A DNA stretch of 64,000 bases from Hydractinia symbiolongicarpus. Its lineage: Eukaryota; Cnidaria; Hydrozoa; Anthoathecata; Hydractiniidae. Position numbers and translations under genes: made by a program. The notes beneath the pieces are model-generated. The model saw only the letters and a list, made by a program, of their open reading frames with translations, had not been told where the DNA came from and did not search any database. Each line of letters begins with the position of its first letter. Position 1 is the stretch's first letter. Shown here in pieces: positions 1 to 61,919 of this stretch. The stretch is taken from NCBI RefSeq assembly GCF_029227915.1, contig NC_079878.1:25071501-25135500 (forward strand), in the 5' to 3' direction.

Positions 1-1290
1 AACTGGGGTTGAAAGATTGTGGTAAAACTGACCAAACAAGGTTCAGCTGGGGTAAATAGAAACCGCTAGGGAACGATTCCCTCCCCTCTTTAATTCGTGC
101 ATAGAAACAAGCTAATTTCTAGCGAAAAAAGTATGTAAGCCAAGGAATTGTTAAGGTGGGAAGCACACACCCTCGGAAATAGAGCGGTTTTCACACTTAA
201 GCCAGGTGATTTGCCGGTTTTTGATAAATGCCCAGTAATGCCCGGCTGTCAATGTACTAAAATGATTGATGGTTGCAACTAATTGGTAATTGTTATTGAA
301 CGATACGTCATCCGTTGGGTGGGATGGAACTTTTAAAACATGATGTTTCATGGGAAGGCTCTCCTGATGTATCCAACACTGGGGACAAAACCATTCGTCA
401 CCACCCAGAAGCAGTTGTGGTTGTAAAAGTGTGTTGAAACCGTCTGGTATTGACTTGCACATAGGTAAGGTTAGTATGGTTTCCTTTTGTTCCCTTGAAG
501 ATGTAAAAAAGCAGTAGTTACACAACGTTGTTGTTGTTAGAGTTATAGAGAGAAGATTGTCAACCACAGGGGATGACCCAATCAGCTCGTCAAAAACTGC
601 CTGTAGAATTTCTGGAACATCCTGCTGAGAATTAAAATAAAAATCTTTTTTATCCACTGCCTGCATTTTGTTTTGCAAAGCCCGTAGGAAATTGGAGGGG
701 TCGATTGGTGAGTTGGAACGCTTAATGAGCGACATAATTAAGGAAATGGACTTGACTACTGGTGATGAAAAGGTGGATTCAAATGGCAATTGAGACCAGA
801 TTCTCGGAAAGACTGTTAATATTTGCAGGATAGAGTTTGCATAACACGCATTACCTTTATTTATTATGCCGACCTGAACCTTCCTTCGTTTACTGATTGG
901 TTAGGCTTAGAAATGGTGGTCAGAGATGGGTTACTGTTTGGTGGCTTCCCCGGCGAATGTAATGCATGTGGTGGGAAACTCTTCTGCGTTGAAGATGGTG
1001 ATGGACTGCTGCGGTAAATCTCTGGCAATTCAAATGCAGAAAGAGGCTTTCATGCTTAAGTCACCCAGCTTGCGTGCAGTCAAGAATGCAGATTCAGTGG
1101 GAAAACCAAGATTTTTTAGGCAACATGTAACAGATCTGGAAGAGTAACCTCTCGCACCAACCTTAATGGCAAAAGATGAGGGGACCACCCATTACTACGG
1201 ATTATTTCAACCAAGGGGGAGTACTTTGACAGTTTGTTGAGTGCTATGACACCATATTCTCCTCGCATGGACAGGTCAGTTTAATAAGAA
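1..1290 (-). mobile_element. Family 1 USP retrotransposon, copy A (3' part, runs off the left edge)
   Basis: Read on the minus strand, the RLE tail (about 1285-1015: ELTCPCEE-like, KLSKYSPL and VGARGY motifs split by frameshifts) is followed by a roughly 60-residue degenerate linker, then a USP domain (about 870-151) and 3' UTR to the window edge. The USP Cys box reads GNACYANS at about 825-865, so Thr is replaced by Ala but the Cys is kept. The QQDVPEIL box and WFCPQC of the zinc ribbon are present, and the His box reads INHFSTLTAGHYWAFIK. The domain spans two frames. The order RLE then USP on one strand matches copies B, D and F. It is a 5'-truncated, inactive copy. Confidence 0.8.
151..870 (-). 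pseudogene. USP (C19) deubiquitinase-like domain of copy A
   Basis: A 212-residue open stretch (789-151) holds most of a ubiquitin-specific protease fold, including QQDVPEIL, the zinc-ribbon half WFCPQC and the His box with GHYWAFIK. The Asn/Asp box is replaced by WLKCENRS. The Cys box lies just upstream in another frame (about 825-865). USPs hydrolyse the isopeptide bond after the C-terminal glycine of ubiquitin. As a domain it is recognisable along its full length, but it is frameshifted, so it is a relic. It is joined to a retrotransposon endonuclease upstream rather than to a host gene. Confidence 0.8.
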
Positions 1291-1299
1291 TGACGATCT

Positions 1300-3799: not shown

Positions 3800-4856
3800 A
3801 AAACTTGCGTTTTCACAGCTTGAGAAAGAACAACACATACACTGTTGAGTTATTTATATCAGACGGCTTAACCTTAACTACTGCCTTGTCATCGTATTTC
3901 AACCACTCGTCTACATTCCGATCTTTAATAAATGCCCAATAATGACCTGCTGCTAGTGTGCCTGAATGATTTATAGTTGCAACTAGTTTGTATTTGTTGG
4001 TGAAAGATACATCATCTGCAGGATGTGAAGGTACCTCCTATATGTTGCCAGAGTGAGAGATACAATTAACATATTGGTTGTTTTTTACTGATCTTCCCTC
4101 GACACAGGTAAATCTTTTTAGTTGAAGAATCAACAAATCTCCACACTGACTAAAAGCTATCCCTCTTGTACTATCCTGGAGGGAAGAACACAGTGGACAA
4201 AGCCACATGTCATTGCCAGTCAGCTTTTCGGGTTGGAAAAACAAGTGAAAGGAGTTTGCAACGCTACTTGAGGTAGCAAGTGGCACAATACCCTCTCCTC
4301 CCTACTAGATGAAAAGAGACACGAATTGCATGACATGGTCGTTGTTAGATTAGTAATGCTATTGTTAGCAATAACCGACGGTCCTGTTAATTCATTTAAG
4401 ATGTGTAAAAGTATCTCTGGAACGTCCTGTTGAGTGTTAATAATAAATGGAGGGCCCCTAATGCCTGACATCTTACACTGCTCTGAGAAAGTTGGACGGG
4501 TCTATAGCAGAGCGTAATATATACAGCAGAGATAAGTTCAGTAAAACTGACTTGGAGAGAGGAGAAACATAAGAGGACTCAGATGCACATTGTGACCAAA
4601 GTGTAGGAGTTACAGTTAAAGCTTGCAAAATAGAATTGGTGTAGCACGTATTACCCTTATTTATAAGCCCTGCATGTAAAGTTATTGAAGCAGTCTTGTG
4701 GGTAGGCAAATCAGGGAAAGGCTTTTCTGACGGGTTGCTTTTACAGTAAGTTCGGTTTTGTTTCTGTGGCAAGGTTTTTGTTTTTGGCATTTGAGAATCA
4801 GGCCCCGTTGGTGTGGAGGATATGGAGATAAGTCCATTCACTTGAATTTCTTGCAA
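3800..4856 (-). pseudogene. USP (C19) domain of copy B, catalytic Cys box intact
   Basis: Three overlapping reading frames (4856-4473, 4471-4220, 4286-4038) carry the USP domain. The Cys box GLINKGNTCYTNSILQAL lies at about 4668-4615 and fits the family pattern GLxNxGNTCYxNSxLQ. QQDVPEIL, a CxxC pair (CNSC) and WLCPLC follow. The region to 3800 holds the remains of the His box and a W-K-D box. Frameshifts split it. The N-terminal part is preceded by a linker continuous with the RLE reading frame, which supports expression as one polyprotein in the active ancestor. Confidence 0.82.
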
Positions 4857-5194
4857 TCCAAATACAAAAAGAGGATTTCATACATACATACATCAACAAG
4901 GTTACGCGCAGCTCGGAAAGTTTTGTTGTTATTCAACCCTAATCTTTTTAAACACAGTGACACTGATTGGGAGCAATAACCTCGAGCACCTACTTCAATT
5001 GCGAAAATATCTACATTCCATCCGTTCTGTTTAATAATTTCAACTAAGGGTGAATACTTCGAAAGCTTCTTTGAATGCCAGATTGCCATATTTTTCTCAC
5101 ATGGACAGGTAAGCTCTATCAAAATTACACGTAACTGCATAGCCATACTTATATGGTCTTCTGCATCGATGTCTCTAGCAGTTTCTGTTACCAA
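4838..5194 (-). pseudogene. Restriction-like endonuclease (RLE) of copy B, internally deleted
   Basis: The 118-residue frame contains VILIELTCPCEKN, KLSKYSPLVEII and AIEVGARGYCSQSV, the hallmarks of the RLE in R2/NeSL-type retrotransposons (PD..E..K fold that nicks the target). The segment before VILIEL is the pre-knuckle sequence (ARDIDAEDHISMAMQLR), so a deletion has removed the CCHC knuckle and the RPD part of the active site. It ends with a conserved tail leading into the linker. Confidence 0.8.
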
Positions 5195-5197
5195 TCT

Positions 5198-5760
5198 TCA
5201 AGGGTAACATCCCTTGACCGTGGGTACTTTAGGGTTGGGATGCATACCTAGGCCACTTTTACCATGTTGAGGTGAACCTATTATGGATCTAACCTTCATT
5301 TCAGCTTCAGCCGTCCTAACTGTGCCCAACACACTCCATTTACCCGCGTTTAATATTGGCAAGCCTGCTGAAACCAATGGGTCCATCGAATCCCCTTAGG
5401 AGCAAGTGTCCACTAATTTTAGATGATTTTAGTTAGATTTTTTATCGGTAACGGACAGGGTGTACATGACGCGTACAAACATTGGTGGTGGAATGATGCA
5501 GATGAAGCCACTTTCTTATAAAAGATGATACCTTTTGCTCAAGAGTACTGGCGCACGACATTGAGACTTCATAAATCAGCAATGCCCATTGGATACGCGG
5601 GATTAGAAGGTGTTGTAAAATCCACAACTTTTGGGGACCTTTGTAAACTGACTTATCTATGGTTGAAAGGCCTACAGATAATTTCTCCTGAAGTTCGTCA
5701 ATAGCTTTCCTATCAGAAATAGAACCATCTATGACGCGACCTAAAAAGCGTACTGGCATG
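5198..5760 (-). pseudogene. RT thumb/connector region of copy B
   Basis: The frame 5759-5442 reads RFLGRVIDGS, KLWILQHLLIPRIQWALLIYE and IRKWLHL, the thumb-to-connector block that follows the RT palm in RLE-type elements. 5386-5198 continues with the segment (DPLVSAGLPILNAGKW, GKSGLGM) seen intact in copies D and F. Stops between the two pieces show decay. Confidence 0.75.
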
Positions 5761-5848
5761 GAGTGGATAGATGGTATATAGGAAGAGAAGTCTGTAGGGT
5801 TTGCAGGCTTTTGGACGGTGAAAGGTGTAGAATTCAGAGACTTGCCTT

Positions 5849-6745
5849 TTATAATACCAATACTTCACGACTTCTGGGTTCGGAAGTCCATACCAGCCAA
5901 TTTAAGTGCGGTAGCACATCTGTATAATAGCTTTTGACTACCCGGAAAGCTCTCATTAAGGGAAGTGCCACCTTGCTTGATGTGATAAATCTTGGAACGG
6001 AAGCCAATAAGGTATATTCAAGAATAATATTGATGCCAGCTAAAAAGAGGACAATGGATAGCGTACAACCAGAAAATATGCCTCGCATTTGTTTATGCCA
6101 AGAACTTGGTGCATATTCAGAAAATGATTTACTGTAGATACCAATGTAGTAGTTCCTAACAAAAGCAATCCAAGGTGGTGGAACACCGTACCGCTGAAGA
6201 GCAAAGAAAATAAGACGGTGAGGAATTGAAGGATATGCATTTGCGATATCTAGCCAAATAGTTGCTAGATCTGACTTTGATGAACGGGCATCTTTGAGTG
6301 ATGACCAAACCATTGACATATGTTCCCAGCAGCCCGGAATCTTTTCCATACAACCTTTTTGGACAGATGTATTTATAAACTTGTTGTTTGTTATGATATG
6401 AGCTTCCAACCGCTTGATACAAGGCTGAAGAGAAGCTTACCTTCGACATTTGAAATTGCTATAGGTCGAAAGTCTTTTATGTTTGACTCCATAGGAGTTT
6501 TCGATTTAGGTATAAAAATTTCACGAGCAATATGCCATTGAACAGGTACGACACAATTTTTGACACAACATTTAAAAACATTAAACAAGAGGGTAATCTT
6601 AGGACACTTTTTATAAACTTTGTAAGGAATTGCATTAACACCAGGAGATGAAGCGTTTCTCCTGCTTGCTAGAAGAGTTAAAAAATCTTTGTATTTAAGA
6701 GAAGACGAGTTAAAAGCTTTCAGAATTGATGGGCCAGCAGGAAGC
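5849..6745 (-). pseudogene. Reverse transcriptase core of copy B
   Basis: Two overlapping frames (6783-6391 and 6409-5849) carry the RT motifs of the R2/NeSL group: SSPGVNAIPYKVYKKC, FIPKSKTPMESNIKDFRPIA, EGKLLFSLVS, SVQKGCMEKIPGCWEHMSMV and WLDIANAYPSIPHRLI. The FxDD catalytic motif expected after LPLMRAF has been destroyed (RAFRVVKSYY). The first 12 or so residues of the upstream frame come from the flanking family 3 element, which marks the 5' truncation point. RTs of this group reverse-transcribe element RNA at the nicked target. Confidence 0.85.
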
Positions 6746-7260
6746 CTTGACACCAAACGGTTTCGCCCCAAAGCCTCAACCAAGGGGTGTCAGGATTCCA
6801 GGCGGGGCACCTCTAATCTGAGGTCCACTAAGTGGTCAACAGGAGGCCCTGGAATCCTCTTCTGTCATCAAATGTTCTTTAATCCGTGCAATCTATTGTC
6901 ATATAAAACAAGGGTTGACTGGGGTAATAGTGGGGTCGTCACACCCAAAGACAAGACTTGTAGGAACCTGTAAAAAGGAAACTAAGCAAGTCAAACCCCC
7001 TTGCTATGCGACGTTTTTATTTCTAATTTTTATTTTATTTTTTAAATTTTCCTATTTTTATTTTATTTTCTATTATTTTAAACTGCCTGGAAGAAACAGA
7101 CGTAGGATAGTTTGCTGTTAAGTTCCTTCCGAACGTCACATTGTGTCACAGCTCTGTCATTGCAGTGAACCCACTGGTCTGTCTTTTAGTCTTGAACAAT
7201 GGCTGTATAGTGCCCATTATTAGGAGAACCAGAGTGGTTTATAAGCGCTCAATTGGTAAC
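6746..7260 (-). mobile_element. Family 3 (X) element, right half: USP C-terminus and 3' UTR
   Basis: From 7255 to 7075 on the minus strand the USP end is legible: INHSGSPNNGHYTAIVQD, then QWVHCNDRAV, so family 3 also encodes a C-terminal USP. The 3' UTR contains the structured GGGG/CCCC motif (7004-6918) and the segment beginning CCTTGACACC that joins to the left half at 3050. It is 5' truncated near 7260. Confidence 0.75.
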
Positions 7261-7621: not shown

Positions 7622-10005
7622 TTGACCAAAGATTGTGTTGTGGAAAATCTGTATAACGTTGTCAGTATGGATAAAAATAATAAGAAAAGAATTTACAAAG
7701 AGGTGGCAAGCCACCGCAATGATGAACTCAACCTGTTAGGTCTTTGGAAACAAGCTAGAGGTTATACTCCTCTAGGGAAAATGCCTCTAAAAGCACAATT
7801 CTCCCTTTTTACAAGGAATTAATTAAAAATATATATAAAAAATAAAAAGGACACAACACAATTGAAAGGATGAACAGAACTTTAACCAAGGGCAGGTAGG
7901 TTTCGACCCATATTTCTGAACCTAAGTACCCTGGATGTCTAGCTGGGTCACCTCGAAGAGGTCCGCGGACGGTCCTCAGCAGAAACTAGACATCCCTAAC
8001 TCAGGTAATAAGTGGAGTCGTTACTCTCCAAAGACAAGATCATCTGTGATCAAACCTCCCCTTTTTTTTAACTGGGGAAATAAGTGGAATCGTCACTCTC
8101 CAAAGACAAGACTGAGTGTAGTCAAGCCCCCTTGCTGACTCATTCTGGTTAAAATATTCTTACCTAAGCTCTTCTAAAAAGAAAACACATGACTCGTGAC
8201 TGTTAATAAGGCGGTCATCACAGAAAATTACTGCTCTATCGTTGCAATGTATCCACCTGTGAACTATTTGGTCGAAGGCTATGGTTGTATAGTGACCATT
8301 ATTTAAGTTGCCGCAATGGTTGATAAAACAACAAGGTACTAACAAAATTACTAAAAGTAGCAACAAACAAAACTATAGCCCTAAAAGAAAAAGAAATTGG
8401 AAAAATGTGATCGTTGCTGGTGCTTTTGATACACCTTTAAGCTCAACTTCTAACTCCAATTTGAGTGAAAGAAAATTATCTTCAGCATCTACGCGTGATA
8501 ATGGTAACAAAATAACTTATGATGTTATGTCTTTAGAAGATATTCATAATGAATTATTTATTATCATTCATCTTAACGTGCTCAAAAATATATGTGGAAA
8601 ATTTGCCTGTCCGAATTGTGCTGGCGAAGTGAGCAATTCTGATGACAAATTAAAACAACGAGGTTTTGTTCATTCCTTAAATATCAGTTGTTTGCAGTAT
8701 GGCTGGATGAATTCATTTTCTACATCTCATGAAACAACTACAAACAAAAACACTGAAGTCGTAGAGCATTTGATGTGAACAATAGGACGGTTACTGGATT
8801 TCGGGAAACAGGATGTGGATGTTCAGCCATGGAGACATTTTCATCAGTCATGAATGTCAAATGCTTGTCATCTTTTCCTTCTAAACAGCTCAATAAAAAA
8901 AGCAATGATTGAGTATAAGAAGTGCAGCAGAAAGCAGTATGGAAGCTGCAGCAAAAAAGTTCCAAAAATTGAGTTTGTCAATGACATATCGTATACGCGA
9001 CTTTCAATTAATGGCTCCTGGCGAAAAAGATGACATTCCTCATTACATGGGGTTGTAACATCTATCTCTGAGGACAAATGTATAGACATGGAAGTGAAAT
9101 CAAGACATTGCTTTGGATGTAAAATGGGGGAGAATAAAAAAGACACCCCTGAGTATGAAATTTGGAAGCTTGAATATAACTGTCAGATAAACCATGATAA
9201 ATCATCAGGCGCAATGGAGTCTGCAGGTGACATTGACATATTTAATCGTTTGATTACCACACGTAATCTAATTTACAAGGAATATTCAGGGGATGGGGAT
9301 ACTTTATCATCTAATGTGGTTAGGGTTCCTATGAGGAGAATGGCATTACACCAATTAAACTGGAATGTGTTGGACATGTTCAGAAACGCCTTGCAACACG
9401 TTTACGCAACCTTGTGAAATCTCACAAGGGTACCAAAACTCCTTTATCCAGTGAAGGAAAGTTTACAAATAAATGCATTGATTTAATGCAGAATTATTAT
9501 GGTATGGCGATAAAAAATAACATTGGAAACCTGTATGTAGTGAAAAAACAGTTTATGCCATACTTTTTCATTTTACAGATTTTGATGATTTTGCGACATG
9601 TCACCAGTTCTGTCCCCGTGATATTAGCAGCTGGCGTAAGTACTGGTCAAAAGGTGATAGAAGGTACAAACCTTCCAACACTATACCTGTACTTATTGAA
9701 AACTGATTATTAGAAAAGTGCATGTATGGAAAAACACGAAATGCTAATGAGGCGTTGTATGGTCTAGGACACCAAAAGCCATTTTTGTTGGCAGGGAAAC
9801 CATTAAAATGGGTGTTCACTCTGCTGTCGTTCATTACAACGGTGGTAAAAAGGATTGCTGGTGCAATTTCCCAAATTATGGCAGAAAAGATAGATGAATC
9901 ACGCATGGCTCGTATGAGTAGGAGATCAACCGACCAAGATAAAAAGCAAAGAAAGAGGTTAAAAGCTAAGAAGAAAGGTTTCACAGATGAGGAGAGAAAA
10001 TTTTG
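7622..10005 (+). pseudogene. Mutator-like transposase, interrupted and frameshifted
   Basis: Frames at 8308-8778, 8940-9080, 9088-9417, 9414-9713 and 9722-10006 together follow the Mutator-like transposase found widely in cnidarians and sponges: a Cys pair (CPNC), SINGSWRKR, HSSLHGVVTSIS, KSRHCFGC, NHDKSSGAMESAG, SGDGDT, NYYGMAIK, a CPRDISSW-type segment and GKTRNANEAL. Stops, frameshifts and a family 2 retrotransposon fragment (7680-8325) break it near its start. The probable first codons (MDKNNK) lie just left of that insertion. The end is overwritten by a family 3 tail at about 9996. The assignment rests on motif memory, but the run of matches is long. Confidence 0.75.
7680..8325 (-). mobile_element. 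Family 2 USP retrotransposon, 5'-truncated insertion
   Basis: It contains the USP C-terminus (8320-8163: NHCGNLNNGHYTTIAFDQ, WIHCNDRAV), two structured 3' UTR motifs (8135-8070, 8060-7998), the closed stem GGATGTCTAG/CTAGACATCC (7933-7998) and the terminal hairpin block ending at AAGAAAA. It lies inside the Mutator-like pseudogene near its 5' end and is therefore younger than that gene. No clear target-site duplication could be read. Confidence 0.8.
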
Positions 10006-12679: not shown

Positions 12680-12835
12680 ATGTACTCCTTCCAAGTATTC
12701 GGTACAAAGATGAACTAATGCAATGAAACGAAAAAATATTGACAAATCAAAATGGGCACCCAAATCAAGTGATCGTGTGTGCTCTATACACTTCGTTGGG
12801 TCTACAACTGAGGTGGATTTAGACAATAGAGATAT
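12680..12835 (+). pseudogene. THAP-domain fragment (C-terminal half)
   Basis: The plus-strand frame reads MKRKNIDKSKWAPKSSDRVC then SIHF, the W-P and C-x2-H-F end of a THAP zinc finger. The upstream half is out of frame or absent. A G-run (12853-12862) and a retrotransposon scrap follow. Confidence 0.5.
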
Positions 12836-12854
12836 TCAGCAAGACAGACCTAGG

Positions 12855-13300
12855 GGGGGGGGGGTGATAACAACAGAGGACTCCGATTCACTTTGTGACC
12901 AAGGTGCAGGAGTTACAGATAATGCTTGCGGGATAAAATTAGCATAATAGCATGTATTCTCTTTATTAATCAGGTCTTGGTTTTGCTGGAGTGCTGTTGG
13001 TAGGTGGTTCTGGGTCTGGGTGTAAGTGACCTTTAGCCGTTGTAGGCCTTTCTTGTTGATGATGTTTCCGTTGTTGCAGGCTTGTAACCTTTGGCAATAA
13101 AGGGGTAGTCACAGATGTTGTGCCTGACGCAAGATTGCAGCTGCCTTGGTTCCACGTAATTAAGTTCCTGGCTAGCCAAATGCAGAAGGATGCTTTTATA
13201 CAAACGTCGCCTAATTTCCAGACGGCTTGGAAAGCTTTTTTGTTTGGGAAACCCAATCGATTGCGAACAGATTTACTTGCCATCATTATGCTCGATGATA
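12855..13300 (-). pseudogene. RLE tail, linker and start of USP (retrotransposon scrap)
   Basis: On the minus strand, 13286-12966 gives RNRLGFPNKKAFQAVWKLGD and IKASFCIWLARNLITW, the C-terminal tail of the RLE. A Pro/Thr/Ser-rich linker follows, and then, in a neighbouring frame at about 12975-12900, a decayed Cys box LINKENTCYYANFIPQAL. This scrap is direct evidence that RLE and USP are separated only by a linker of about 60 residues. Relative to the Cys box consensus it carries G to E and an inserted residue. Confidence 0.75.
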
Positions 13301-13805
13301 ATTATCAAAGGTATATCTAAAACCTTTACCCCCCAAAAAGTTAAAACTGTGTACCTCAGATATGGAAAATCAGGGTAGCTCTTCCACATCTAATATTGAT
13401 ATTGATGCTGATGGCTTGTTTACTCCACCACTTGAACACACCTAATTTAAAACTCCTGCTTCTATAAGCTGAAGTGAGTGCACTGGTAAACAAGGCTAAT
13501 AAATTCTTTAGTATCTAAAGTAAACTCCGTTACACTACAAAACCAAACATTATCTCGAGAAAAGATTTTTAATAGGGAGTTGGACATTCATATAGCGAAA
13601 AATAAAGAGTGGCGAGGAGATGAACTTTTACACAGGATTCATGACCATTGCTTTATTTAATGCAATCTTTATTTTTCCCAAGCTATATTTATCAAATTTG
13701 AGGTTCTGGAGAGGTCCAAAGCAAGCACTAAGTAACAAATAAACATACAAAGCCTTACAAAACTGGATTAAAAAATTAAAACACAGTGGCAAATTTTTAT
13801 TGACA
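13301..13805. other. No gene seen
   Basis: No recognisable domain on either strand; it ends at the 3' terminus of copy D. Confidence 0.35.
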
Positions 13806-14377
13806 TTATTAAGAAAATAATTTACAAAGAGGTGGCAAGCCACCGCAATGATGAACTCAACCTGTTAGGTCTTTGGAAACAAGCTAGAGGTTGTACTCCT
13901 CTAGAAAACATGCCTCTAAAAGCACAATTCTCTCTTTTCACAAGGAATTAATTAAAAAAATATAAAAAAATAAAATAAAAAGGACACAACACATTTGAAA
14001 AGATGAACAGAACTTTAATTAAGGGCAGGTAGGTTTCGACCCATACTTCTGAACCTAAGTACCCTGGATGTCTAGCTGGGTCATCTCGAAGGTCACCTCA
14101 TCAGCAGAAACTAGACATCCCTATCTTTCTAAAATTAACTTTGACCACTTTCTGTTTAACTGTGCTATTGTTTGTTTTTAACTCAGGTAATAAGTGGAGT
14201 CGTTACTCTCCAAAGACAAAATCATGTGTGATCAAACCCCCCTGCTAATATTTTTTTTATTATTTTTTATTTATTATTATTTTTTTTAACTGGGGTAATA
14301 AGTGGAGTCGTCACTCTCCAAAGAGAAGACTGAGTGTAGTCAAGCCCCCTTGCTGACTCATTCCGGTTAAAATATTC

Positions 14378-15175
14378 TTATCTCAGCTCTTCTATAAAGA
14401 AAACATAAGACTCGTGACTGTTAATAAGGCGGTCATCACAGAAAATTACCGCTCTATCGTTGCAATGTATCCACCTGTGTACCATTTGGTCGAAGGCTAT
14501 GGTTGTGTAGTGACCATTATTTAAGTTGCCGCAATGGTTGATAATAGCCCTTAATTGAAAGTTTTTACGAAATTTCACTTCTCCATCTACGGTTAAAGGT
14601 ATGGAAAGGGTACCAGGGTAAGCAGTAATACGAGAGGCAATTTTTGACACAAGGCCGTTGGCACTGGCAAAACGTTTTAGCTGTAAAATGAGATGGGAAC
14701 CGCACGACACTACTTCTTTTTCAACTACAGCAGTTTGATGAGCGTTGCAAACATGGCAGAAGTAGGCATTGGTGTCTGACAACTCCTCGCTTTCGAAGAA
14801 ATTATCTAAGGAAGATTGTAACGTAGCGTGAAGAGAAAGTTGGATGCATGGTGCTATAACTTCTGAGGAGCTGGTAAAATGACATGAATTGCAAGTGGTT
14901 GAGGTCTTGATGCCAATACTAAAAAGACTTCCAAGAAATGGAAAGTCTAATGACAGACCAGGTAAGAGATATTCAAGAACCTCGGGGACGTCATGCTGAG
15001 CAAAGATATTAAATGCACTTCCCTTCGCAGCTGAGATATGATGTTTCACAGCACGCAAAAAATAGGAGGGATCAACTGGACTTCTAGAAACAGCCAAACT
15101 TTGAAGAACACCTACAAATGCTTCGCCTAACTTTGAGGTTGTTTTGCTGACAGAAATGGCTTCTTTAACTTTTGG
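14378..15175 (-). pseudogene. USP (C19) domain of copy D, nucleophile box deleted
   Basis: The 239-residue frame (15097-14378) has QHDVPEVL (35-42), zinc-ribbon pairs CNSC (69-72) and CHVC (114-117), LILQLKRF (136-143), His box NHCGNLNNGHYTT with His196, and the HCNDRAV box with Asn213/Asp214. Upstream, the linker reads GLKN and then, in the next frame, LHQCFYNLPKVKE: the GNTCYxNS nucleophile segment between them is missing, which causes the frameshift. Otherwise every USP landmark is in place and spaced as in cellular USPs, although the domain (about 260-270 residues) is on the short side. Confidence 0.88.
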
Positions 15176-16075
15176 AAGGTTATAAAAACATTGATGAAGT
15201 TTTTTAGACCGCTATTCCTAAAATCAGGGTTAGATGACAATGCGACTGTTGTTTTGGAAGACCTTGTAGCAAGTTTTTCGGGTTCTTTGATTTTACAAGA
15301 TTTTGTGTGATTTGCGGAAGATTTCTCAGGGGTTTTTGATTTCTTACATTCCATATTTGTAACAGAAGAAACTTCAGGAATGATTGGGGCCTTTTCAGGC
15401 TCAACCCAAGTGGTAGAATTTCGAGACATCCAGATGTAAAAAGAAGCACTCATGGAGGTAAAAGTTAGGGATTTTAATAGGGAACGTAAAGGCTTGTTAG
15501 GGAAACCAAGGCGACGAAAACAGGTCCTTACTGATTCTGAACAGAAACCCCTTGCACCCACCTCAATGGCAAAGAAATGCACGATCCATCCATTGTTTTT
15601 CATAGCATAACAAAGTGAAGAATATTTGTTAAGCTTTCGTTTGTGCCAATATTCCGTGTTCTCTTCACATGGACAAGTCAGTTCTAACATAATAACAGTT
15701 TTGGAAGAACTGGATATTAATAACACGTCTGGGCGTAGTTGTGTTATTGCAATGTATCGTGGAACAACTAAAACGGAATCTAAATCTGACAGTATTTTCC
15801 AATCGGAAGCAAGGTGAAGAAGGCCTGGACACTTTGTATGCCTCTTCTTAGATGGTGATTGACCAGCTGGAATGAAATTAATTTTGTTGCACTTGGAAAG
15901 CTTAAGAGGTTCATATGATACCAAAAACTCTTTTAATGCCTTAACCAAAACTATTAAAACCGAGTCATGACGGTATGTGTATCTACCCTGCGTAAGGGAG
16001 GTCCTACAGGCACCCAATATGTGAGAGACATTTGAGGATGGTTTCTTGCACAGAATGCAACTTTTGTCTTTCTCA
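15127..16075 (-). pseudogene. CCHC knuckle and restriction-like endonuclease of copy D
   Basis: After a knuckle CILC..H..GAC and GRYTYRHDSVL, the RLE active site reads RPDVLL (Asp97 of the 296-residue frame), VIMLELTCPCEE (Glu112) and KLNKYSSL (Lys131), then FAIEVGARGFC (148-158). This is the PD-(D/E)xK arrangement of R2/NeSL endonucleases, which nick one strand of the target. The frame continues through the tail RRLGFPNKPLRSLL and a Ser/Thr/Pro/Lys-rich linker of about 80 residues and would run into the USP but for a deletion. RLE and USP were therefore one reading frame in the ancestor. Confidence 0.88.
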
Positions 16076-16083
16076 ATTCCTCA

Positions 16084-16728
16084 TCACACAAGCTTGGTTG
16101 GAGAGGGAAGGGTGTCGTAGGTTGCCCCTATACAAAAGGAAGTTAGACATTGTGGGAGTGAAAGAATTGTTCTCCAAGATAAATCATTTTTCACATAAGA
16201 GCACCATCTCGTCCAATTGCCTTGCAAATGCAACTGTACAGCTCTGGCATTGTAAATATCTTCTTCATTTTCTTCAATGATATTGGAAACAAGCTTTTGG
16301 TAAGCATAAGTGCCTTTTGGTGGTATATTTTTGTGGTCTAAGAGCCCTAAGCCAGCTCCACCAGTCTGATGCAAACCTAAAATCTCTTTGAAATTGAGCT
16401 GACTATCTGCCGAAAGAACTGCCTCACTAACTTTCCAATTTCCAGCTTTCAAAACTGGTACGCACTTAGACACACAAGGGTCGACAGAATCTCTTAGTAA
16501 CAGATGTCCACTGAGGAGCTCTAACTTAATCCCCGTAAATTTGAGTGCAGCCTTCCATGCCAAGCCGGGTGCGCTGTAGAAGTGAGCGCGTTTTGGCATT
16601 CTAACAGGACTAGCATCCAGTGTTTTTACAACATGGATCAAAGTGATTAGTTTGATTTCAGGCAGACCTTTGGTTGTTTGGTTATCAAGAGAAAGTATCC
16701 GTGAGAATCCGCCAGAAGTATTTGTCAA
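16084..16728 (-). pseudogene. RT C-terminal connector of copy D
   Basis: The 214-residue frame contains SRILSLDNQTTKGLPEIKLI, LAWKAALKFTGI, VDPCVSKCVPVLKAGNWKV, LHQTGGAGLGLL and VQLHLQGNWTRWCSYVKNDL, the segment between RT thumb and CCHC knuckle in this element family; copies B and F show the same blocks. It ends at two TGA codons. An identical copy lies exactly 2,778 bp away at 18862-19506. Confidence 0.75.
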
Positions 16729-16969
16729 GCCTGGCTATTCGAAACTATCGTGTGATATTGAATGAACCAAATCTTTATTAAATCAGACATGTACTTGCTC
16801 TGATTATAAGCATCATAACACCCTAAAATTCATGAATGGTATATCACCCACTGGCTTTATTATATTTTTGTCAAACTGCTACGATGGTCGTTCAAGTGAC
16901 AAATTTATAACAAAGGACAGTGGATTTTTAAACTTTTAGAGCGAGACGATAAATTTTAATGGCATCATG

Positions 16970-17720: not shown

Positions 17721-17882
17721 CTCCTTTTAACCATCTTTGTGGCATGGTCAATAATTCTCGACTTATTTGATGACATAAGAATTATGTCATCTATACTGGG
17801 TAAATCTTGTGGCTTCGTTTGCTCATTCTCTGTCTCAAGTGACTCACGAAAAAGTTAACTTCAGGTTTAGGAACTGCAGTAA

Positions 17883-18340: not shown

Positions 18341-18861
18341 TAAACGACGGTGAATCCTACTTTTTAGCGGCAAAGGTTTCGCTGCTAGTTTTTGACCAAT
18401 CAGAACGCGGTTAACTAATGTAAACAATGAATTTGGCGCCTTTTTATTTTGTCGTAAAAATTAAAAAGCGAATTCGCCGTTTAATTCGCTTCGTGCAAAT
18501 CTCCCTTTAATAAGACGTCGGGGTGTAGTATGAATGGTGGAACAACTAAAACGGAATTTAAATCTGACAGTACTTTCCTATCAGAAGCAAGGTGAAGAAG
18601 GCCTGAACACTTTGTATTCCTCTTCATAGATGGTGATTGACCGGCCGGAATGAAATTAATTTTGTTGCACTTGGAAACCTTAAGAGGTTCATATGATACC
18701 AAAAACTCTTTTAATGCCTTAACCAAAACTATTAAAACCGAGTCATGACGGTATGTGTATCTACCCTGCGTAAGGGAGGTCCTACAGGCACCCAATATGT
18801 GAGAGACATTTGAGGATGGTTTCTTGCACAGAATGCAACTTTTGTCTTTCTCAATTCCTCA
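18341..18861 (-). pseudogene. Truncated RLE/knuckle at the chimeric junction
   Basis: The frame 18795-18481 reads GACRTSLTQGRYTYRHDSVL through to HPDVLL, then diverges into unrelated residues (KGDLHEAN), so the RLE is cut in its active site near 18525. The sequence beyond (18341-18525) is unrelated to the element. The left part matches copy E (21259-21461); the right part matches copy D. Confidence 0.7.
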
Positions 18862-19506
18862 TCACACAAGCTTGGTTGGAGAGGGAAGGGTGTCGTAGGT
18901 TGCCCCTATACAAAAGGAAGTTAGACATTGTGGGAGTGAAAGAATTGTTCTCCAAGATAAATCATTTTTCACATAAGAGCACCATCTCGTCCAATTGCCT
19001 TGCAAATGCAACTGTACAGCTCTGGCATTGTAAATATCTTCTTCATTTTCTTCAATGATATTGGAAACAAGCTTTTGGTAAGCATAAGTGCCTTTTGGTG
19101 GTATATTTTTGTGGTCTAAGAGCCCTAAGCCAGCTCCACCAGTCTGATGCAAACCTAAAATCTCTTTGAAATTGAGCTGACTATCTGCCGAAAGAACTGC
19201 CTCACTAACTTTCCAATTTCCAGCTTTCAAAACTGGTACGCACTTAGACACACAAGGGTCGACAGAATCTCTTAGTAACAGATGTCCACTGAGGAGCTCT
19301 AACTTAATCCCCGTAAATTTGAGTGCAGCCTTCCATGCCAAGCCGGGTGCGCTGTAGAAGTGAGCGCGTTTTGGCATTCTAACAGGACTAGCATCCAGTG
19401 TTTTTACAACATGGATCAAAGTGATTAGTTTGATTTCAGGCAGACCTTTGGTTGTTTGGTTATCAAGAGAAAGTATCCGTGAGAATCCGCCAGAAGTATT
19501 TGTCAA
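18862..19506 (-). pseudogene. RT C-terminal connector, duplicate in unit 2
   Basis: A base-for-base counterpart of 16084-16728, including the two premature TGA codons at its end. That identity shows both stem from copy D and not from separate retrotranspositions. Confidence 0.8.
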
Positions 19507-19747
19507 GCCTGGCTATTCGAAACTATCGTGTGATATTGAATGAACCAAATCTTTATTAAATCAGACATGTACTTGCTCTGATTATAAGCATCATAACACC
19601 CTAAAATTCATGAATGGTATATCACCCACTGGCTTTATTATATTTTTGTCAAACTGCTACGATGGTCGTTCAAGTGACAAATTTATAACAAAGGACAGTG
19701 GATTTTTAAACTTTTAGAGCGAGACGATAAATTTTAATGGCATCATG

Positions 19748-20498: not shown

Positions 20499-20660
20499 CT
20501 CCTTTTAACCATCTTTGTGGCATGGTCAATAATTCTCGACTTATTTGATGACATAAGAATTATGTCATCTATACTGGGTAAATCTTGTGGCTTCGTTTGC
20601 TCATTCTCTGTCTCAAGTGACTCACGAAAAAGTTAACTTCAGGTTTAGGAACTGCAGTAA

Positions 20661-21118: not shown

Positions 21119-21258
21119 TAAACGACGGTGAATCCTACTTTTTAGCGGCAAAGGTTTCGCTGCTAGTTTTTGACCAATCAGAACGCGGTTAACTAATGTA
21201 AACAATGAATTTGGCGCCTTTTTATTTTGTCGTAAAAATTAAAAAGCGAATTCGCCGT

Positions 21259-21770
21259 TTAATTCGCTTCGTGCAAATCTCCCTTTAATAAGACGTCGGG
21301 GTGTAGTATGAATGGTGGAACAACTAAAACGGAATTTAAATCTGACAGTACTTTCCTATCAGAAGCAAGGTGAAGAAGGCCTGAACACTTTGTATTCCTC
21401 TGCATAGATGGTGATTGACCGGCCGGAATGAAATTAATTTTGTTGCACTTGGAAACCTTAAGAGGTTCATATGATACCAAAAACTCTTTTAATGCCTTAA
21501 TAAAAACTATTAAAACCGAGTCATGACGGTATGTGTATCTACCCTGCGTAAGGGAGGTCCTACAGGCACCCAATATGCGAGAGACATTTGAGGATGGTTT
21601 TTTGCACAGAATGCAACTTTTGTCTTTCTCAATTCCGCATCTCACAAGATTGGTTGGAGAGGGAAGGGTGTCGTAGGTTGCCCCTATACAAAAGGAAGTT
21701 AGACATTGTGGGAGTGAAAGAATTGTTCTCCAAGATAAATCATTTTTCACATAAAAGCACCACTTTAGTC
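21259..21770 (-). pseudogene. Family 2 copy E: CCHC knuckle with truncated RLE
   Basis: The 163-residue frame keeps the knuckle start lost in copy D: LVRCGIEKDKSCILC, then NVSRILGAC, where Arg replaces the usual knuckle His. GRYTYRHDSVL follows, and the frame breaks in the RLE after HPDVLL. It is truncated upstream near 21765 inside the connector. It is the diverged partner of the unequal crossover. Confidence 0.75.
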
Positions 21771-21983
21771 CACAACTAAAAAATGCTTAAGTTAAATACC
21801 GTTAGAGAGTCGTTCCCGTTAGCTTATGACGATAATATGATCACTGATGATGACTTTGTGCTTTTGTATGATCTCAACTCTTCAAAAAAATCCAGAAATA
21901 CCCTAATGGCTGTATAATAGATTTAATCTTGAACTACTATGTGATGATGAATGCCGAACTGAATTTCGCTTTTGGAAAATAAG

Positions 21984-29345: not shown

Positions 29346-29574
29346 TTATTTAATCCCATTGATAAATCCATCTAAACAGTCAACAGTCAACCTACCTTTC
29401 TATGATGTTATATACAAAATTTAAAAATATAAATTTTTTTCTTGACATGGGTCCAAAAAAATAAAAAATGATAATTAAATTTAACAAAAGTTTATTTTCT
29501 GTGTAAACCAGTTCATACTTTTCTCATCTTATAATTTAAATTTACATATTTCATTTCCGAATTAAATGTACATC

Positions 29575-29924
29575 ATCCCAGAGTGGTTAATTATAGCCCT
29601 TAAGTTTTAGTGCTTGCAACAAGAGACTTCACTGTCTACAGTGATAGGTATAGAAACGGTGTCCAGGTAAGATGTGACAGGAGAACAAACCTTAGACACA
29701 AGACCTTTGTTATAGGCAAAGCGCTTTAATTGCAGAACCAAAATTGAACCGCACTCTGCAACCTCTTTTTCAACTGTTGCTGTTTGGTAACTATTGCAGT
29801 AGTGACAGAAGTACGAGTTGACACCTGACAATTCTTCGCTCTCGAAAAAGTTATCTACTGAAGATTGTACAGTCGATGTCAAGGGCAGTTGAAGAAATGG
29901 ACTTACTTGCTCAGAGGTGCTAAT
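29575..29924 (-). pseudogene. USP domain fragment, family 2-like
   Basis: The frame 29882-29607 contains SSVDNFFESEELSGVNSYFC, the zinc-ribbon pair CHYC, LVLQLKRFAYNKG and the start of the His box (LRAIINHSG, other frame, about 29600-29580). It is closest to copy D but diverged, so probably another family. Its N-terminal side is cut at 29924 by the 3' terminus of copy C. Confidence 0.78.
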
Positions 29925-30699
29925 TGATGATGAGGTGACAAAACAGCTAGCTGTAATGATATTTCTTGTCTAATGACAGCTGGTTCTACTATAGTTAGAG
30001 GTTGCAACCCTCTGGAGATTTTTCAAAAAAGCAAAATCCCCCTTTTTGCAAGGATTTCCTAAAAACATTGACCGTAAAAGGCAGAAAAATACAACAGAGA
30101 CAGAACACAACACTAAACAATAAATATTAAAGCAATTCAAAATGAATTGAATAGGTACAAATGAGATAAATAAAACTTATCATAACGTGAATATCCTTAA
30201 ACGGATAAATTTAAAATTATTCTTTAGAGAATGTGTTTAAGAAGCAAACAACTATCTGCGCGCCAGGACTTGTGACCCTGGCTGTAGCTTTCCACATGTG
30301 TTATGGAGCTCCAACACTCAGCCTTACACAGATAATTGTTGCTGTGAACCTGCCTAATGACAGTACCAGCCTGTCATAACTGGGGTAATATGCGTGGGCG
30401 TAACACCACGAAGACCAGATAAGAAAATCTAACCCCTTTGCAAAGCTTCTTCTAAAATGACTAAGGGCAGCAGGATTGTCAATCCTGAAAGCAAAGTGAG
30501 CAAACTCTGCCTCCCTACTGGACTGGGTAATAAGTGGGATCGTTAAGCCCAAAGACAAGATATGATATCAAGCCCCCTTGCTGTGCTTCTTACAGTGTCT
30601 CTATACAAAGAGAGGAGTGAGCAAACTCCGGTTTCACGGTGCACTGACCAACATAAATCAGCTGGGGCAAATAAAACCGCTAGGGTCATGGATTCCCTC

Positions 30700-31620
30700 C
30701 CCCATTTGTTGTGTGACATACAAATAAGCTAACTTCTGGAAAAGAAAAGTATGTATGACAAAGAATTATTCAATGTGTCTACTTGAGAAATACAGCGATC
30801 GTTGCATTTGAACCAGGTGTTTTGTTGGTCCTTAATGAAGGCCCAGTAATGACCTGCTTTAATGTACCTGAGTGGTTAATGGTAGCAACCAAGTTATACT
30901 TGTTGTTGAAAGACACATCGTCAGTTGGGTGAGATGCTACCTTTAAGACATGATGTTTGTTAGGCAAGCAATTGACTAACTTGTTGTCTTTAAAAGAAGA
31001 CCCATTTACTGATGTGTATCTTAACAATTGTACAACAAGGAAGTCGCCGCAATTAGAAATCTGAGTTTCAATTGTGGCCTCTTGATGCGATGAAAACTGG
31101 GGGCAGAACCACTTGTTGTCACCTAGAAGTTCTTGAGGTTGTAAAAATTTGTTAAAAGAGTCTGCTATTAACTTACACGTTGGTAAAATTAAAATTGAAT
31201 CCTTTTGTTCCCTGGAAGTGGAGAAACAACAGGAGTTGCATGACGTTGTTGTGGTCACAGTTACAGACAGTAGATTGTCAACCAAAGGGGAAGATCCAAT
31301 AATTTCGTCAAAAACAACTTGAAGGATCTCGGGCACATCTTGTTGGTGATTGTGATAAAACGCGTTATTGTTAAGAGCATGCATTCTGTTTTGCAGTGCT
31401 CGTAAGAAATTGGAAGGATCAATTGGTGAACGAGAACGATTCAGTAGTGACATATTTAGGACTATAGACTTTACTAGAGGAGAGGACAAAGAGGACTCTG
31501 ATGGTAATTGAGACCCAAAGTCTTGGAAGAACCGTTAATGCTTGCAAAATGGAGTTTGCGTAGCATGTGTTCCCCTTGTTTATCAAACCAGCGTGAACGA
31601 TGCTCACCTTTTGTTTAAGT
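30700..31620 (-). pseudogene. USP (C19) domain of copy C
   Basis: The Cys box HAGLINKGNTCYANSILQAL (about 31600-31540) is intact and fits the USP consensus fully. After a frameshift, the 236-residue frame gives QQDVPEIL, CNSC, WFCPQF (second Cys of this zinc pair lost to Phe), FLVVQLLRY and INHSGTLK. One missing base in an A-run then shifts the GHYWAF His box out of frame. Near the end the WFKCNDRC Asn/Asp box is legible in the other frame (30810-30785). The catalytic boxes can all be found, so decay is modest. Confidence 0.87.
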
Positions 31621-31699
31621 TCCTGGCTAAGGTTATGGTGTTCCGTGGGTTTTGGCATGTCAGAGATGGCTGAAGGGATGAATGAAGAGAAGTCGGTTT

Positions 31700-33539
31700 G
31701 TGACGAGATGTGAGACACAGAAAAAGGTGTGGAGTTTACAGATCTACCTTTTATAAGGATTATGCTCCTTGACTTACGAGGGCAAAAACTCATGCCAGCC
31801 CATTTTAAAGCAGTGACGCACCTGGAAAGGAGGCTTTGAGCTCCACAGACAGAGGATGACATTAGGTTGATATCAGCCATGAAAGCTCTGACTAAAGGAA
31901 GGGGCACGTTTTAGAAGTAATATAATTTGGGGCCGGTGCCGCAATAGTGTATTTAAGAATAATGTTTATACCAGCAAGAAACAAAATGATGGAAAGAGTG
32001 CAACCTGCAAAAATACCTCGCATATACTTGTGCCAGTTGCTTGGTGCAGACAAAGAAAACGATTTGCTATATAAACCAACGTAGTATGACTTAATGAATG
32101 ATATCCAACTCTGAGGGACTCCATACCTTTCCAGTGCAAAAAATATAAGCTTGTGTGGAATTGAAGGATACGCATTTGCAATATCCAGCCATATATTTGC
32201 AAGGTGTGATTTTTTGGCCCAGGCCTCTTTTAAGTGCACACCAAACCATTGACATGTGTTCCCAGCATCCTGGGACTTTCTCCATACAACCCTTCTGAAC
32301 CGACGTGTTAATGAATTTGTTATTATGTATAATGTGAGCTTCTAATCGCCTTGATACAAGGCTAAATAAAAGCTTGCCTTCGACATTTAATAATGCGATA
32401 GGTCGAAAGTCTTTAATATTAGACTCCATAGGAGTTTTTGATTTGGGAATATAAACTTCACGAGCACAACGCCATTGAATAGGGACAACACAATTTTTGA
32501 AACAAGACTTAAAAACATTAAACAAAACAGTATTTGCTTTATTACATTTTTTATAAACTTTATAAGGTATCCCATTGATACCTGGGGAAGAGCCATTTCG
32601 CCGAGTGACAAGAACTTTCACAAAATCTTCATATTTAAAGAGAGAAACTGGAAACGATTTCAAAAGAGGTGGAGTGGATGATTCCCCATCTAGATTACCT
32701 AAAGGTACATCATACAATTTGTCTTTAACTGATTCAAGTTTAAAGTTATCCAGCGTTTCTTGTTCGATCCTTAAAACTGATTTGCACTTCGGGTCAAGAA
32801 GATCTTTTCCTGCCTTGTATGGATTGTTCTTAAAGGCGGTCTGGGCTTTTTTGAATTGATGGCGTTTTTTTCTAGACCTTTCAGCTCGGCGCAATAAAGT
32901 TATTCGACCTTTTACATCCGTAAGAAGTTGGTGTAATTCCTTCCTTTGACTTAGGTAGCAGGATGACTGTATTTGACTAGTTAGGGAATTTTTCTCTTTA
33001 ATTAGATTGATGGATTGAATAGTTCTTCGGCTTTTTCCTGACAGCTTTCTGCCACCCTTATGAACTGAGTGACCACAAATTTGTGCTGCCTTATTATAAA
33101 CGGTGTCTTCAAGCAGTTGTACTTTTTCGGACAAGGAATTACACAAATGAAGCTTATTAGAAAGAATATTTGAAGCAGCATTATCCAAATTGGACCAGCG
33201 GTCGTCAATCATTTTCCCCCAAGATATTGGTGTTTTAATCTGCAAGTTATTAAGATACTTCTCCTCAGTGTGATGGGAATGTCTCGTGTGGGGTTTATCC
33301 GGAGAATCATTGACCTTCTTAAGCTTTTCAGAACCACATTTAGGGAAGATATCCTGAAGAACAACTTTGCATTTGGTAATAGGAGGATGTTTTATTGGAC
33401 TATTTGGAAATGCTGAATTTGTGATCTCAAAATCAATTTCAGATTCACCGCAGCGATTGTTAGAGTTTGTTAAGGATTTATCTATAGCTACAGTGAGTAA
33501 AATGCACAGGGCAAAAGACCACCCTGAGTTGCCTGGCAC
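31700..33539 (-). pseudogene. Reverse transcriptase with N-terminal domain, copy C
   Basis: The 482-residue frame (33539-32091) has a basic, helical N-terminal domain (WGKMIDDRWSNLDNAASNIL, KGRITLLRRAERSRKKRHQF) and RT motifs NGSSPGINGIPYKVY, IPKSKTPMESNIKDFRPIAL, EGKLLFSLVSRRLEAHI, SVQKGCMEKVPGCWEHMSMV. A frameshift leads to 32239-31892 (WLDIANAYPSIPHKLIFFAL, RGIFAGCTLSIILFLAGIN) and another to LVRAFMADINLM. The YxDD-type box is F-M-A-D, so the first catalytic Asp is Ala. The start shown is not ATG (a stop lies just upstream of a GTG), so the true N-terminus is missing. Confidence 0.85.
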
Positions 33540-33801
33540 ACAGGGCTAAGCTATAATTTTCACAGTGTCGCCACTACTGCGAGGATTCGCTAGGGACTAA
33601 TTAACCTAATAGCCATTCATCTATTGGCGCGTACCGTAGATTAAGGTCCGAGTAAAATAAATTTTAAAATCAAATCCGAAAGAATAGTCCATTAACGGTC
33701 AAGGTATTTATGGAGCGCATCTGGTCTTTCCCAGCGTCACTAGTCTTTCCCAGGGTCAGCTAGTCTTTCCTAGCAGCCATGAAACCGTTACGGTGAACAA
33801 C

Positions 33802-34074: not shown

Positions 34075-34868
34075 AGAAAGGAGAAAATAATTTACAAAGA
34101 GGTTGATGAACAATGATGAACTCAACCTGTTAGGTTCTTGGAAATAAGGTAGAGGTTGTACTCCTCTAGAGAAAATACCTCTAAAATCACAATTCTCCCT
34201 TTTTACAAGGAATTAATTAAAAAAATATAAAAAATAATAGGGACACAACACATTGAAAAGATGAACAGAACTTTAACCGAGGTAGGTAGGTTTCGACCCA
34301 TATTTCTGAACCTAAGTACCCTGGATGTCTAGCTGGGTCACCTCGAAGAGATCCGCGGACGGTCATCAGCAGAAACTAGACATCCCTATCTTCCTAAAGT
34401 AAACCTTGACCACTTTGTGTTCAACTGTGCTATTGTTTGTTTTTAACTTAGGTAATAAGTGGAGTCGTTACTCTCCAAAGACAAGATCATGTGTGATCAA
34501 ACCCCCCTGCTAATACTTTTTTTTTTTAACTGGGGTAACAAGTGGAGTCGTCACTCTCCAAAGACAAGACCTAGTATGATCAAACCCCCTTTCTAACTTA
34601 TTTTTTATTTCATTTGGAAAAGGTTTACAATACAGCAAGCTGCACTGAAGTATCTTGTCTACAGGGACGGTGGATGTAAATAAAATTGGGATTAGGCTCC
34701 CAGAAGAAGGTGCTGAATACACTTTCTTGCTTATTACAAGCATGAGTACTGTCCAACTTGGACCTATAACTATTCACTTGTTTTATTTTTGACTGGGGTA
34801 ATAAGTGGAGTCTACAAAAAGACTAAGTGTAGTCAAGCCCCCTTGCTGACTCATTCTGGTCTAAAATA
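34075..34868 (-). mobile_element. Family 2 3' end, 5' truncated before the USP
   Basis: Terminal block (34080-34210), closed stem (34321-34386), and three structured motifs (34445-34510, 34528-34592, 34792-34846; the last lacks its middle hairpin). Coding sequence is absent: the copy stops at CTCATTCTGGT, just before where the USP stop codon region would begin. Confidence 0.75.
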
Positions 34869-49240: not shown

Positions 49241-49290
49241 GCAAACTAATTATTACATGTTTGTCCGCACTTCAATCCCACAATGCCCGA

Positions 49291-55410: not shown

Positions 55411-55414
55411 TAAA

Positions 55415-56010
55415 CCAAAGTTGAAGCCTTCCTCCGTTCCATAGTTATCATCCACTCCACCTCTTTTGAAATCGTTTCCAGTTTCTCACTTTAATTATGA
55501 AGATTTTATGAAGGTTCTTGTCAGTCGGCGAAATGGCTCTTCCCCAGGTATCAATGGGATACCTTAAAAAATGTAATAAAGTAAATACTGTTTTGTTTAA
55601 TGTTTTTAAGTCTTGTTTCAAAAATTGTGTAGTCCCTATTCAATGGCGTTGTGCTCGTGAAGTTTATCTTCCTAAATCAAAAACTCCTATGGAGTCTAAT
55701 ATTAAAGACTTTCTACCTATCGCATTATTAAATGTCGAAGGCAAGCTTTTATTTAGCCTTGTATCAAGACGATTAGAACCTCACATTATAAATAATAACA
55801 AATTCATTAACACGTCGGTTCAGAAGGGTTGTATGGAGAAAATCCCAGGATGCTGGGAACACATTTCTATGGTCTGCACTTAAAGAGGTCAGGGCCAATA
55901 AATCACACCTTGCAAATATATGGCTGGATATTGCAAATGCGTATCTTTGTATTATATTTTTTGCAATGGAAAGGTATGGAGTTCCTAAGAGTTGATATGG
56001 TTGTTTATTT
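55415..56010 (+). pseudogene. Family 1 RT fragment, copy G
   Basis: Plus-strand frames give FNYEDFMKVLVSRRNGSSPG, then CFKNCVVPIQWRCAREVYLP, SKTPMESNIKDFLPIALLNV, EGKLLFSLVSRRLEPHI, SVQKGCMEKIPGCWEH and, past a frameshift, ANIWLDIANAY. It is nearly the same as copy C but truncated on both sides and missing the motif after ANAY. It shows that the family has inserted in both orientations. Confidence 0.85.
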
Positions 56011-56014
56011 GTAG

Positions 56015-56180
56015 CAAAATTAAATATATATGTACAACAAAAAAATATATATGCAAGAAAAAATATATATGTGCAAGAAAATCGGTAATATATATGGACA
56101 ATAAAGATATATGCAACAAAAATATATATATTCAAGAAAATCGGTAATAATATATGCAACAAAAATATATACTTCGCATC
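56015..56180. repeat. AT-rich minisatellite
   Basis: Irregular units of AAATATATATGCAAGAAAAT with or without TCGGTAATA. Low-complexity ORFs on the minus strand come from it. Confidence 0.75.
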
Positions 56181-60743: not shown

Positions 60744-60819
60744 TGCTTATATGCTCCAAAATAAGTGGTCATTTTCTTTTATTCCAAAGATTCCAAAGAT
60801 CCTCTTGTGTCTAACAGTG

Positions 60820-61910: not shown

Positions 61911-61919
61911 TCTGGAACA

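Follow-up and report, generated by a model that had tools for sequence, protein, structure and literature searches.

What is a host-type ubiquitin-specific protease (USP) doing directly behind the nuclease of a retrotransposon? The question arises from a 64,000-nucleotide stretch of the Hydractinia symbiolongicarpus genome (hereafter the window; C4:25071501-25135500 of an assembly of 480.9 Mb in 76 contigs), in which a sequence-only reading had noticed this order of domains in several copies. We assign the source, almost certainly, to a clade of non-long-terminal-repeat (non-LTR) retrotransposons of the restriction-like endonuclease (RLE) type, relatives of R2, that carry the USP as the C-terminal domain of their long open reading frame (ORF). 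The predicted domain order is N-terminal region, reverse transcriptase (RT), thumb, CCHC zinc finger, PD-(D/E)xK nuclease (the RLE), flexible linker and USP. The group is real, widespread and recently mobile, and we found its domain combination described nowhere; no long interspersed nuclear element (LINE) with a USP was recognized as described in the literature searched, a body of work outside which Repbase Reports lie.

Copy D and its intact relatives

The window copies were located by frame-tolerant comparison with intact relatives. One of them, copy D (minus strand, block 16494-14378), reads as a decayed, 5'-truncated retrotransposon that retains thumb end, CCHC zinc finger, RLE, linker and USP, with two partial repeats alongside:

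16084..16494, minus strand: thumb end of the retrotransposon ORF, aligning from residue 734 of the intact ORF P0062
16006..16080, minus strand: CCHC zinc finger (C-x2-C...H-x4-C), read off the frame
15402..15888, minus strand: RLE (RPD...EL...K), equivalent to P0062 residues 936-1098; motif conserved in 22 long ORFs, hand-picked on length and motifs
15212..15401, minus strand: RLE–USP linker; frame change close to its end
14378..15211, minus strand: USP (C19/UCH; Pfam UCH 2.2e-21), Cys box damaged, GHY and CND present
18481..19512, minus strand: second copy of thumb end, zinc finger and RLE start; tandem duplication, 2778-bp spacing
21259..21786, minus strand: third copy of the same parts, from the same tandem duplication

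Two open frames in register (16734-16084 and 16080-15127) are separated by a pair of neighbouring stops (16086-16081). Comparison with intact relatives identifies, from 16494 onwards, the thumb end, the zinc finger, a whole RLE and the linker; the ~80 residues ahead of this point (16734-16495) are without a match in those relatives, and the same comparison finds no RT domain in the copy. Apart from the stop pair, thumb through linker forms one frame. As the sequence-only reading had it, this frame runs from the RLE almost into the USP: it stays open to 15127, and the USP (15211-14378) follows after one frame change, at ~15.2 kb. We attribute the break to decay of this copy, because D-type RLE and UCH matches adjoin at seven genomic places in open frames of equal length for both (667, 571, 563, 551, 507, 489 and 459 residues). 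Pfam returns no match for the RLE frame of copy D, and its zf-RVT model matches weakly in the sister copy at 21259-21786 (E 0.0066, below cut-off). The D family has at least 135 matches in the genome (125 of 982 candidates scored).

The tandem duplication spans 15127-21786, with three copies of part of the D element plus a YqaJ-domain fragment. The thumb-end open frame recurs at 100% identity at 18862-19512, and the YqaJ fragment (17310-17726) reads the same again at 20088-20504.

Searching the genome with Pfam UCH gave at least 150 matches (149 of 1015 candidates scored), several of them in stop-free open frames of 1422-1426 codons. Among 20 stretches taken, six (L009, L010, L012, L014, L015 and L016) share a 1426-codon frame with 7-12 pairwise differences per 4281 bases, and L020 (1423 codons) is a further member of their family, 99.6% identical where it aligns. 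A second family holds L018 (1422 codons) and L019 (1379 codons), 66-74% identical to L009 in DNA where alignable. Pfam recognizes RVT_1 in L009 and L018 (8e-16 and 5e-17) and a full-length UCH that ends 3 residues before the C terminus (3.7e-32 and 3.8e-31); zf-RVT stays below cut-off. The ORF does not stop after the RLE: at these intact loci a single frame leads from RT through RLE to the end of the USP, as the earlier reading implied, and full-length copies are present in the genome as the L009 and L018 families.

Adjacency holds genome-wide. Among the 148 RLE matches listed, a same-strand UCH match follows within 1.5 kb in 65 cases and in 0 once the strands are flipped, which upholds the earlier exclusion of chance adjacency. 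The idea that the two domains are neighbours by accident, or that a host USP gene sits beside LINE debris, draws on the broken state of the window copies and the different frames of the copy D domains, but we give it practically no chance: it is refuted by intact single ORFs at several loci, by RLE with USP in 70 of 96 database matches (below) and by the strand-flipped control. Seen from the protease, 65 of the 150 UCH matches listed lie directly behind an RLE, and in annotation such elements inflate USP counts.

Copies of the L009 family share a common 3' end and are truncated at differing 5' points, which we read as the signature of target-primed reverse transcription; target-site duplications did not exceed random expectation in eight copies. 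The terminal 480 bp is present in at least 40 copies at 98-100% identity (40 of 603 candidates scored). Because its intact copies are almost identical, the family has evidently moved recently. In an animal kept in the laboratory, a single catalytic-site mutant of such a copy could reveal what use a jumping gene has for a deubiquitinase.

The 5' ends of these units have peculiarities of their own. At the L027 junction, where the copy is truncated, we see by eye a foldback of the 5' part of the element itself, resembling a twin-priming inversion. The 5368-bp unit (L009, L010, L012-L016, L020, L025 and L026) starts each time directly after the exact 3' end of another unit, in 11 sightings that represent 9 distinct places (L012/L013 and L025/L026 overlap); what lies upstream can be as short as 111 bp or as long as a full unit, and no free-standing start occurs in the fetched stretches. 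This arrangement points to RNA templates that comprise several units, to template jumping or to a promoter within the 3' end of the upstream unit, the last being known from HeT-A. Rfam gave no match to L010:1400-7900 at E up to 5, and no known ribozyme of the hepatitis delta virus type was seen.

Class, distribution and descent of the fusion

The RT is of LINE/R2 type, with FMDD in 22/22 of the long ORFs and PDB matches to R2 proteins at E 2e-36 to 4e-34 (profile A1) that cover RT and thumb and leave the RLE uncovered; at the level of RLE-type LINEs, the label "R2/NeSL-type" given by the sequence-only reading was correct. Zinc-finger C/C/H/C columns are invariant, and the nuclease motif is kept (RPD 21/22, EL 22/22, K 22/22); we take it to be a PD-(D/E)xK enzyme by motif. 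The elements resemble R2 in these C-terminal domains, in an RT and thumb homologous to solved R2 proteins (9nl2, 9nl3, 9dou), and in 5'-truncated copies with a common 3' end. They differ in what follows the RLE, where the R2 protein ends and the Hydractinia elements continue with linker and USP. R2 also targets 28S rDNA, whereas the L009 family has no conserved target flank that we could see: by eye, and for this family only, the 3' flanks of 17 junctions differ unless another unit follows, giving no sign of insertion into a fixed gene.

Other mobile elements with proteases of the ubiquitin system are known. Dualen is likewise a LINE with a deubiquitinase-class domain, but of the OTU family, and has an additional APE-type endonuclease beside its RLE; the corresponding endonuclease/exonuclease/phosphatase domain has no match in the 6 proteins scanned here. 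The part of PMC4640811 consulted describes an N-terminal Ulp1-like protease in nematode NeSL and in Utopia-1_TSP, RLE-type LINEs that therefore also pair with a protease of ubiquitin-like modifiers; theirs is Ulp1-like, N-terminal and from nematode families, in contrast to the C-terminal C19 enzyme here, and two ORFs of Hydractinia, along with four relatives from the database, gave no match to Ulp1. Excerpts of PMC2836005 give C-terminal OTU or Ulp1 domains in Ginger1, comparable as C-terminal ubiquitin/SUMO hydrolases but in a DNA transposon, and a Trichomonas vaginalis protein joining transposase_11 to Peptidase C19, the same family but again no retrotransposon. Helentrons with an OTU protease (PMC6431247, in part) share the ubiquitin-system cysteine protease, but are rolling-circle DNA elements with OTU rather than USP. 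As far as these three sources go in the parts drawn on, transposon ubiquitin-family proteases are Ulp1 or OTU, with C19 beside a DNA transposase. Such proteases thus occur in several unrelated transposons; here one is fused with RT and nuclease in a single polypeptide and conserved across a large clade.

How general is the fusion? The zinc finger–RLE–linker frame of copy D retrieved 60 proteins, 8 with a precomputed UCH domain. A second search scored the thumb end to the linker alone, and hence did not select for the USP. By our own domain profiles, its 96 matches divide into 70 with RLE and USP, 24 with RLE and no USP, and 2 without RLE; RT, RLE and USP share one polypeptide in 43/96. Four of the 24 (P0002, P0086, P0114 and P0130) contain the first part of a USP before ending, 12 distant ones (P0136, P0139, P0140, P0142 and P0144-P0151) stop within 30 residues past the RLE match, and the remaining 8 stop short of where a USP would appear. 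A third search, with the divergent query P0137, scored zinc finger to USP and is thus biased towards the USP; it added 45 proteins, 25 of LINE type, with a USP in 19/25 (one partial), always C-terminal.

A tree built from RT to RLE for 61 rows (36 drawn from an earlier 68 and the 25 new LINE-type proteins; rooted on P0151) places all USP carriers in one 53-row clade (support 98, starred), together with P0130 (a remnant), three truncated rows and five rows whose sequence stops behind the RLE; no USP is present in the 8 rows outside this clade. The fewest gain/loss changes on this tree number 3, consistent with one gain plus a few losses; the 68-row tree had needed 11, truncated rows having been scored as lackers. 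Scans of prokaryote genome contigs and of viral contigs with the single protein P0062, one each and reaching close relatives only, found no relative.

Two observations concern individual proteins. P0124, a LINE-USP protein labelled as from a Pseudomonadales metagenome-assembled genome, probably stems from animal DNA that was binned with bacterial contigs. N-terminal C2H2 zinc fingers, which Pfam does not find in L009 and L018, occur in some divergent members (P0136 and P0156; weak in P0137, by eye in P0134).

The protease has the USP fold with zinc-ribbon fingers that defines USP / peptidase C19. The 22 long ORFs share without exception the catalytic Cys and His, the CND Asp and four zinc Cys. 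Mean identity is 58% for RT, 51% for thumb, 49% for zinc finger plus RLE, 40% for the N-terminal region, 36% for USP and 13% for linker: the USP is more variable than the RT and far above the linker. Linker length ranges over 40-101 residues (median 57), reaching ~275 in two other ORFs, a wider span than the 60-80 residues first proposed. Between three RLE-attached families (L006; L008/L018/L019; L009/L020), non-synonymous divergence (dN, Nei–Gojobori) of the USP is 0.38-0.53 with synonymous sites saturated; L003 and L007, ~300-codon USP frames whose upstream RLE is unchecked, were excluded from this range, and L005 has no complete USP frame. Including L003 and L007 raises dN to as much as 0.86, with a dN/dS of 0.38 between the two. 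The sequences show the USP to be under purifying selection. Pairwise distances in the RT correlate with those in the USP (r = 0.905, 0/5000 permutations; 0.872 minus the three most divergent of the 22 ORFs), and the two domains therefore descend together.

One intact-ORF query matches R2 retrotransposon proteins and human USPs alike among solved structures. In a separate structural comparison that was to include the RLE part, the 50 rows listed cover residues 199-494 (one 109-494) and thus hardly any of the RLE. The nearest solved USPs are USP2, USP8, USP15 and USP36. In the best tree of 27 LINE, 11 host and 1 Helitron-like USP, the LINE USPs do not all group together, but a constraint to that effect is not rejected (p-AU 0.303); in an earlier tree, with 30 LINE USPs and 4 from hosts, the 4 hosts were separated from the rest at support 84, unstarred.

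A USP also occurs in rolling-circle-type proteins. P0187 (1013 aa) joins a PIF1-type helicase and an endonuclease/exonuclease/phosphatase domain to a C-terminal USP, and looks like a Helentron-type element that took one up; P0185 (2257 aa) has an N-terminal USP and Helitron_like_N.

Possible roles of the protease

The USP is very probably an active deubiquitinase: of 84 database proteins with any USP, 56 have the domain with both ends complete, and 54 of these keep the triad (Cys, His, Asn/Asp). Participation of the ubiquitin pathway in transposition was proposed in 2010, according to the text of PMC2836005 drawn on here.

Beyond clade identity and joint descent, we lean towards a USP that deubiquitinates the element's own ribonucleoprotein. 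We favour this because the USP is tethered to the DNA-cutting end, by a linker that is probably disordered, and because no ubiquitin domain turned up in the proteins scanned. Covalently tied to RT and nuclease, with one RNA encoding all three, it would be part of each ribonucleoprotein and on hand wherever a target is nicked. There it could deubiquitinate the protein of the element itself along with the closest neighbours of that protein within the complex, which would spare the particle host ubiquitin–proteasome restriction until target-primed reverse transcription is complete. That such protection is the main role of the USP is plausible rather than probable.

Several points weigh against this proposal. 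The sequence is silent on the substrate, and self-protection is preferred only by economy. The triad is incomplete in two of the 56 complete USPs, with Tyr replacing His in P0101 and Ser at the Asn/Asp position in another. Between them the six young copies vary at just 29 codons (17 non-synonymous, 12 synonymous), a number too small to reveal selection. P0136, P0139, P0142, P0171 and P0172 lie inside the clade without a USP; because some relatives do without it, the USP is not indispensable to such elements.

Of the roles put forward by the sequence-only reading, stabilization of the element protein and action on chromatin are both possible. In the second case the USP would act on the target, deubiquitinating histones (H2A/H2B) or replication and repair factors at the nick and so letting reverse transcription and second-strand synthesis finish. 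We hold this somewhat unlikely overall. A flexible linker fusing the USP behind the DNA-cutting domain would put it at the nick, and its nearest solved relatives form a group that includes nuclear enzymes; in the portion consulted, PMC2836005 suggests that transposon ubiquitin/SUMO proteases act on repair. On the other hand, no histone- or PCNA-binding feature was seen, none having been searched for, and USP sequence class does not predict substrate. Its stronger form, a mobile endonuclease–deubiquitinase whose clearing of ubiquitin from chromatin or repair factors is required for retrotransposition, is more doubtful still. If it were true, local ubiquitin/SUMO removal would be a general step of transposition, given the retention in a deep clade and the Ulp1 and OTU enzymes of unrelated elements.

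An unlikely role is counter-defence in trans, with the USP blunting ubiquitin-dependent host silencing or innate signalling, much as viral deubiquitinases blunt ubiquitin-dependent host defence. Structurally similar USPs are encoded by large DNA viruses, and the USP is the fastest-evolving domain measured bar the linker, as an arms race predicts; but rapid divergence may equally reflect weaker constraint, and fusion to RT and RLE restricts free action in trans. That the USP is a non-catalytic ubiquitin-binding module, for which host pseudo-USPs offer a precedent, is improbable given the near-universal triad. Least probable of these roles is polyprotein processing, the third earlier suggestion: the USP is C-terminal in a single multi-domain ORF and viral polyproteins use proteases, but USPs cleave after ubiquitin, of which no domain was found in six proteins scanned, and the linker is unconserved. 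A weak APG12 match lies in the thumb (E 0.04 in L009, 0.05 in P0030).

Other remnants and elements in the window

Further copies and fragments of these elements are scattered through the window:

154..1294, minus strand: copy A, second part of RLE (EL motif onward), linker, USP (Pfam UCH 1.2e-18; tblastn E 7e-116)
3819..6756, minus strand: copy B, RT, thumb, second RLE part (EL motif onward), USP, with frame breaks (tblastn with intact ORFs)
7081..7248, minus strand: USP C-terminal fragment (tblastn)
8160..8324, minus strand: USP C-terminal fragment, 95% identical to copy D (tblastn)
12725..13283, minus strand: scrap that retains the RLE end, the linker and a damaged start of the USP (tblastn E 7e-12 with intact ORF L009, E 3e-4 with USP_F1)
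29571..30038, minus strand: USP fragment, 54% identical to copy D (tblastn)
30732..33545, minus strand: N-terminal region and RT joined to linker and USP, ~97% DNA identity to L018 either side of an internal gap
34615..34778, minus strand: 164-bp 3'-end piece of the recently active L009 family, 99.4% identical (blastn)
55389..56076, plus strand: RT fragment of the L018 family, 88-91% DNA identity to L018/L019
60662..62775, plus strand: thumb end, zinc finger, most of RLE, then USP, 87-91% DNA identity to L018 (also tblastn)

The sequence-only reading placed a full USP behind an RLE on the same strand in copies A, B, D and F and in the scrap. The core order stands; the scrap has no full USP, and the RLE is partial in most copies. 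Copy B lacks the zinc finger and RLE start, and the copy at 60662-62775 has lost most of the RLE end and linker. If its F, a letter left undefined, is the copy at 33545-30732, the claim fails there, since the RLE is lost and the USP follows the RT: this copy aligns to L018 residues 16-583 and then 1107-1422, and an internal deletion has taken out thumb, zinc finger and RLE. The other long USP segments of the window are 26-64% identical to the USP of copy A, and the window therefore holds several families.

Elements of other kinds are also present. A THAP-domain ORF adjoins a DDE_Tnp_4/HTH_Tnp_4 ORF at 45261-46806 (plus strand), presumably a PIF/Harbinger-like transposase pair. An open frame of 554 residues at 47585-49249 (minus strand) contains SAP and YqaJ-like nuclease domains, and a fragment of an integrase core domain (rva_4) lies at 56717-57127 (plus strand).

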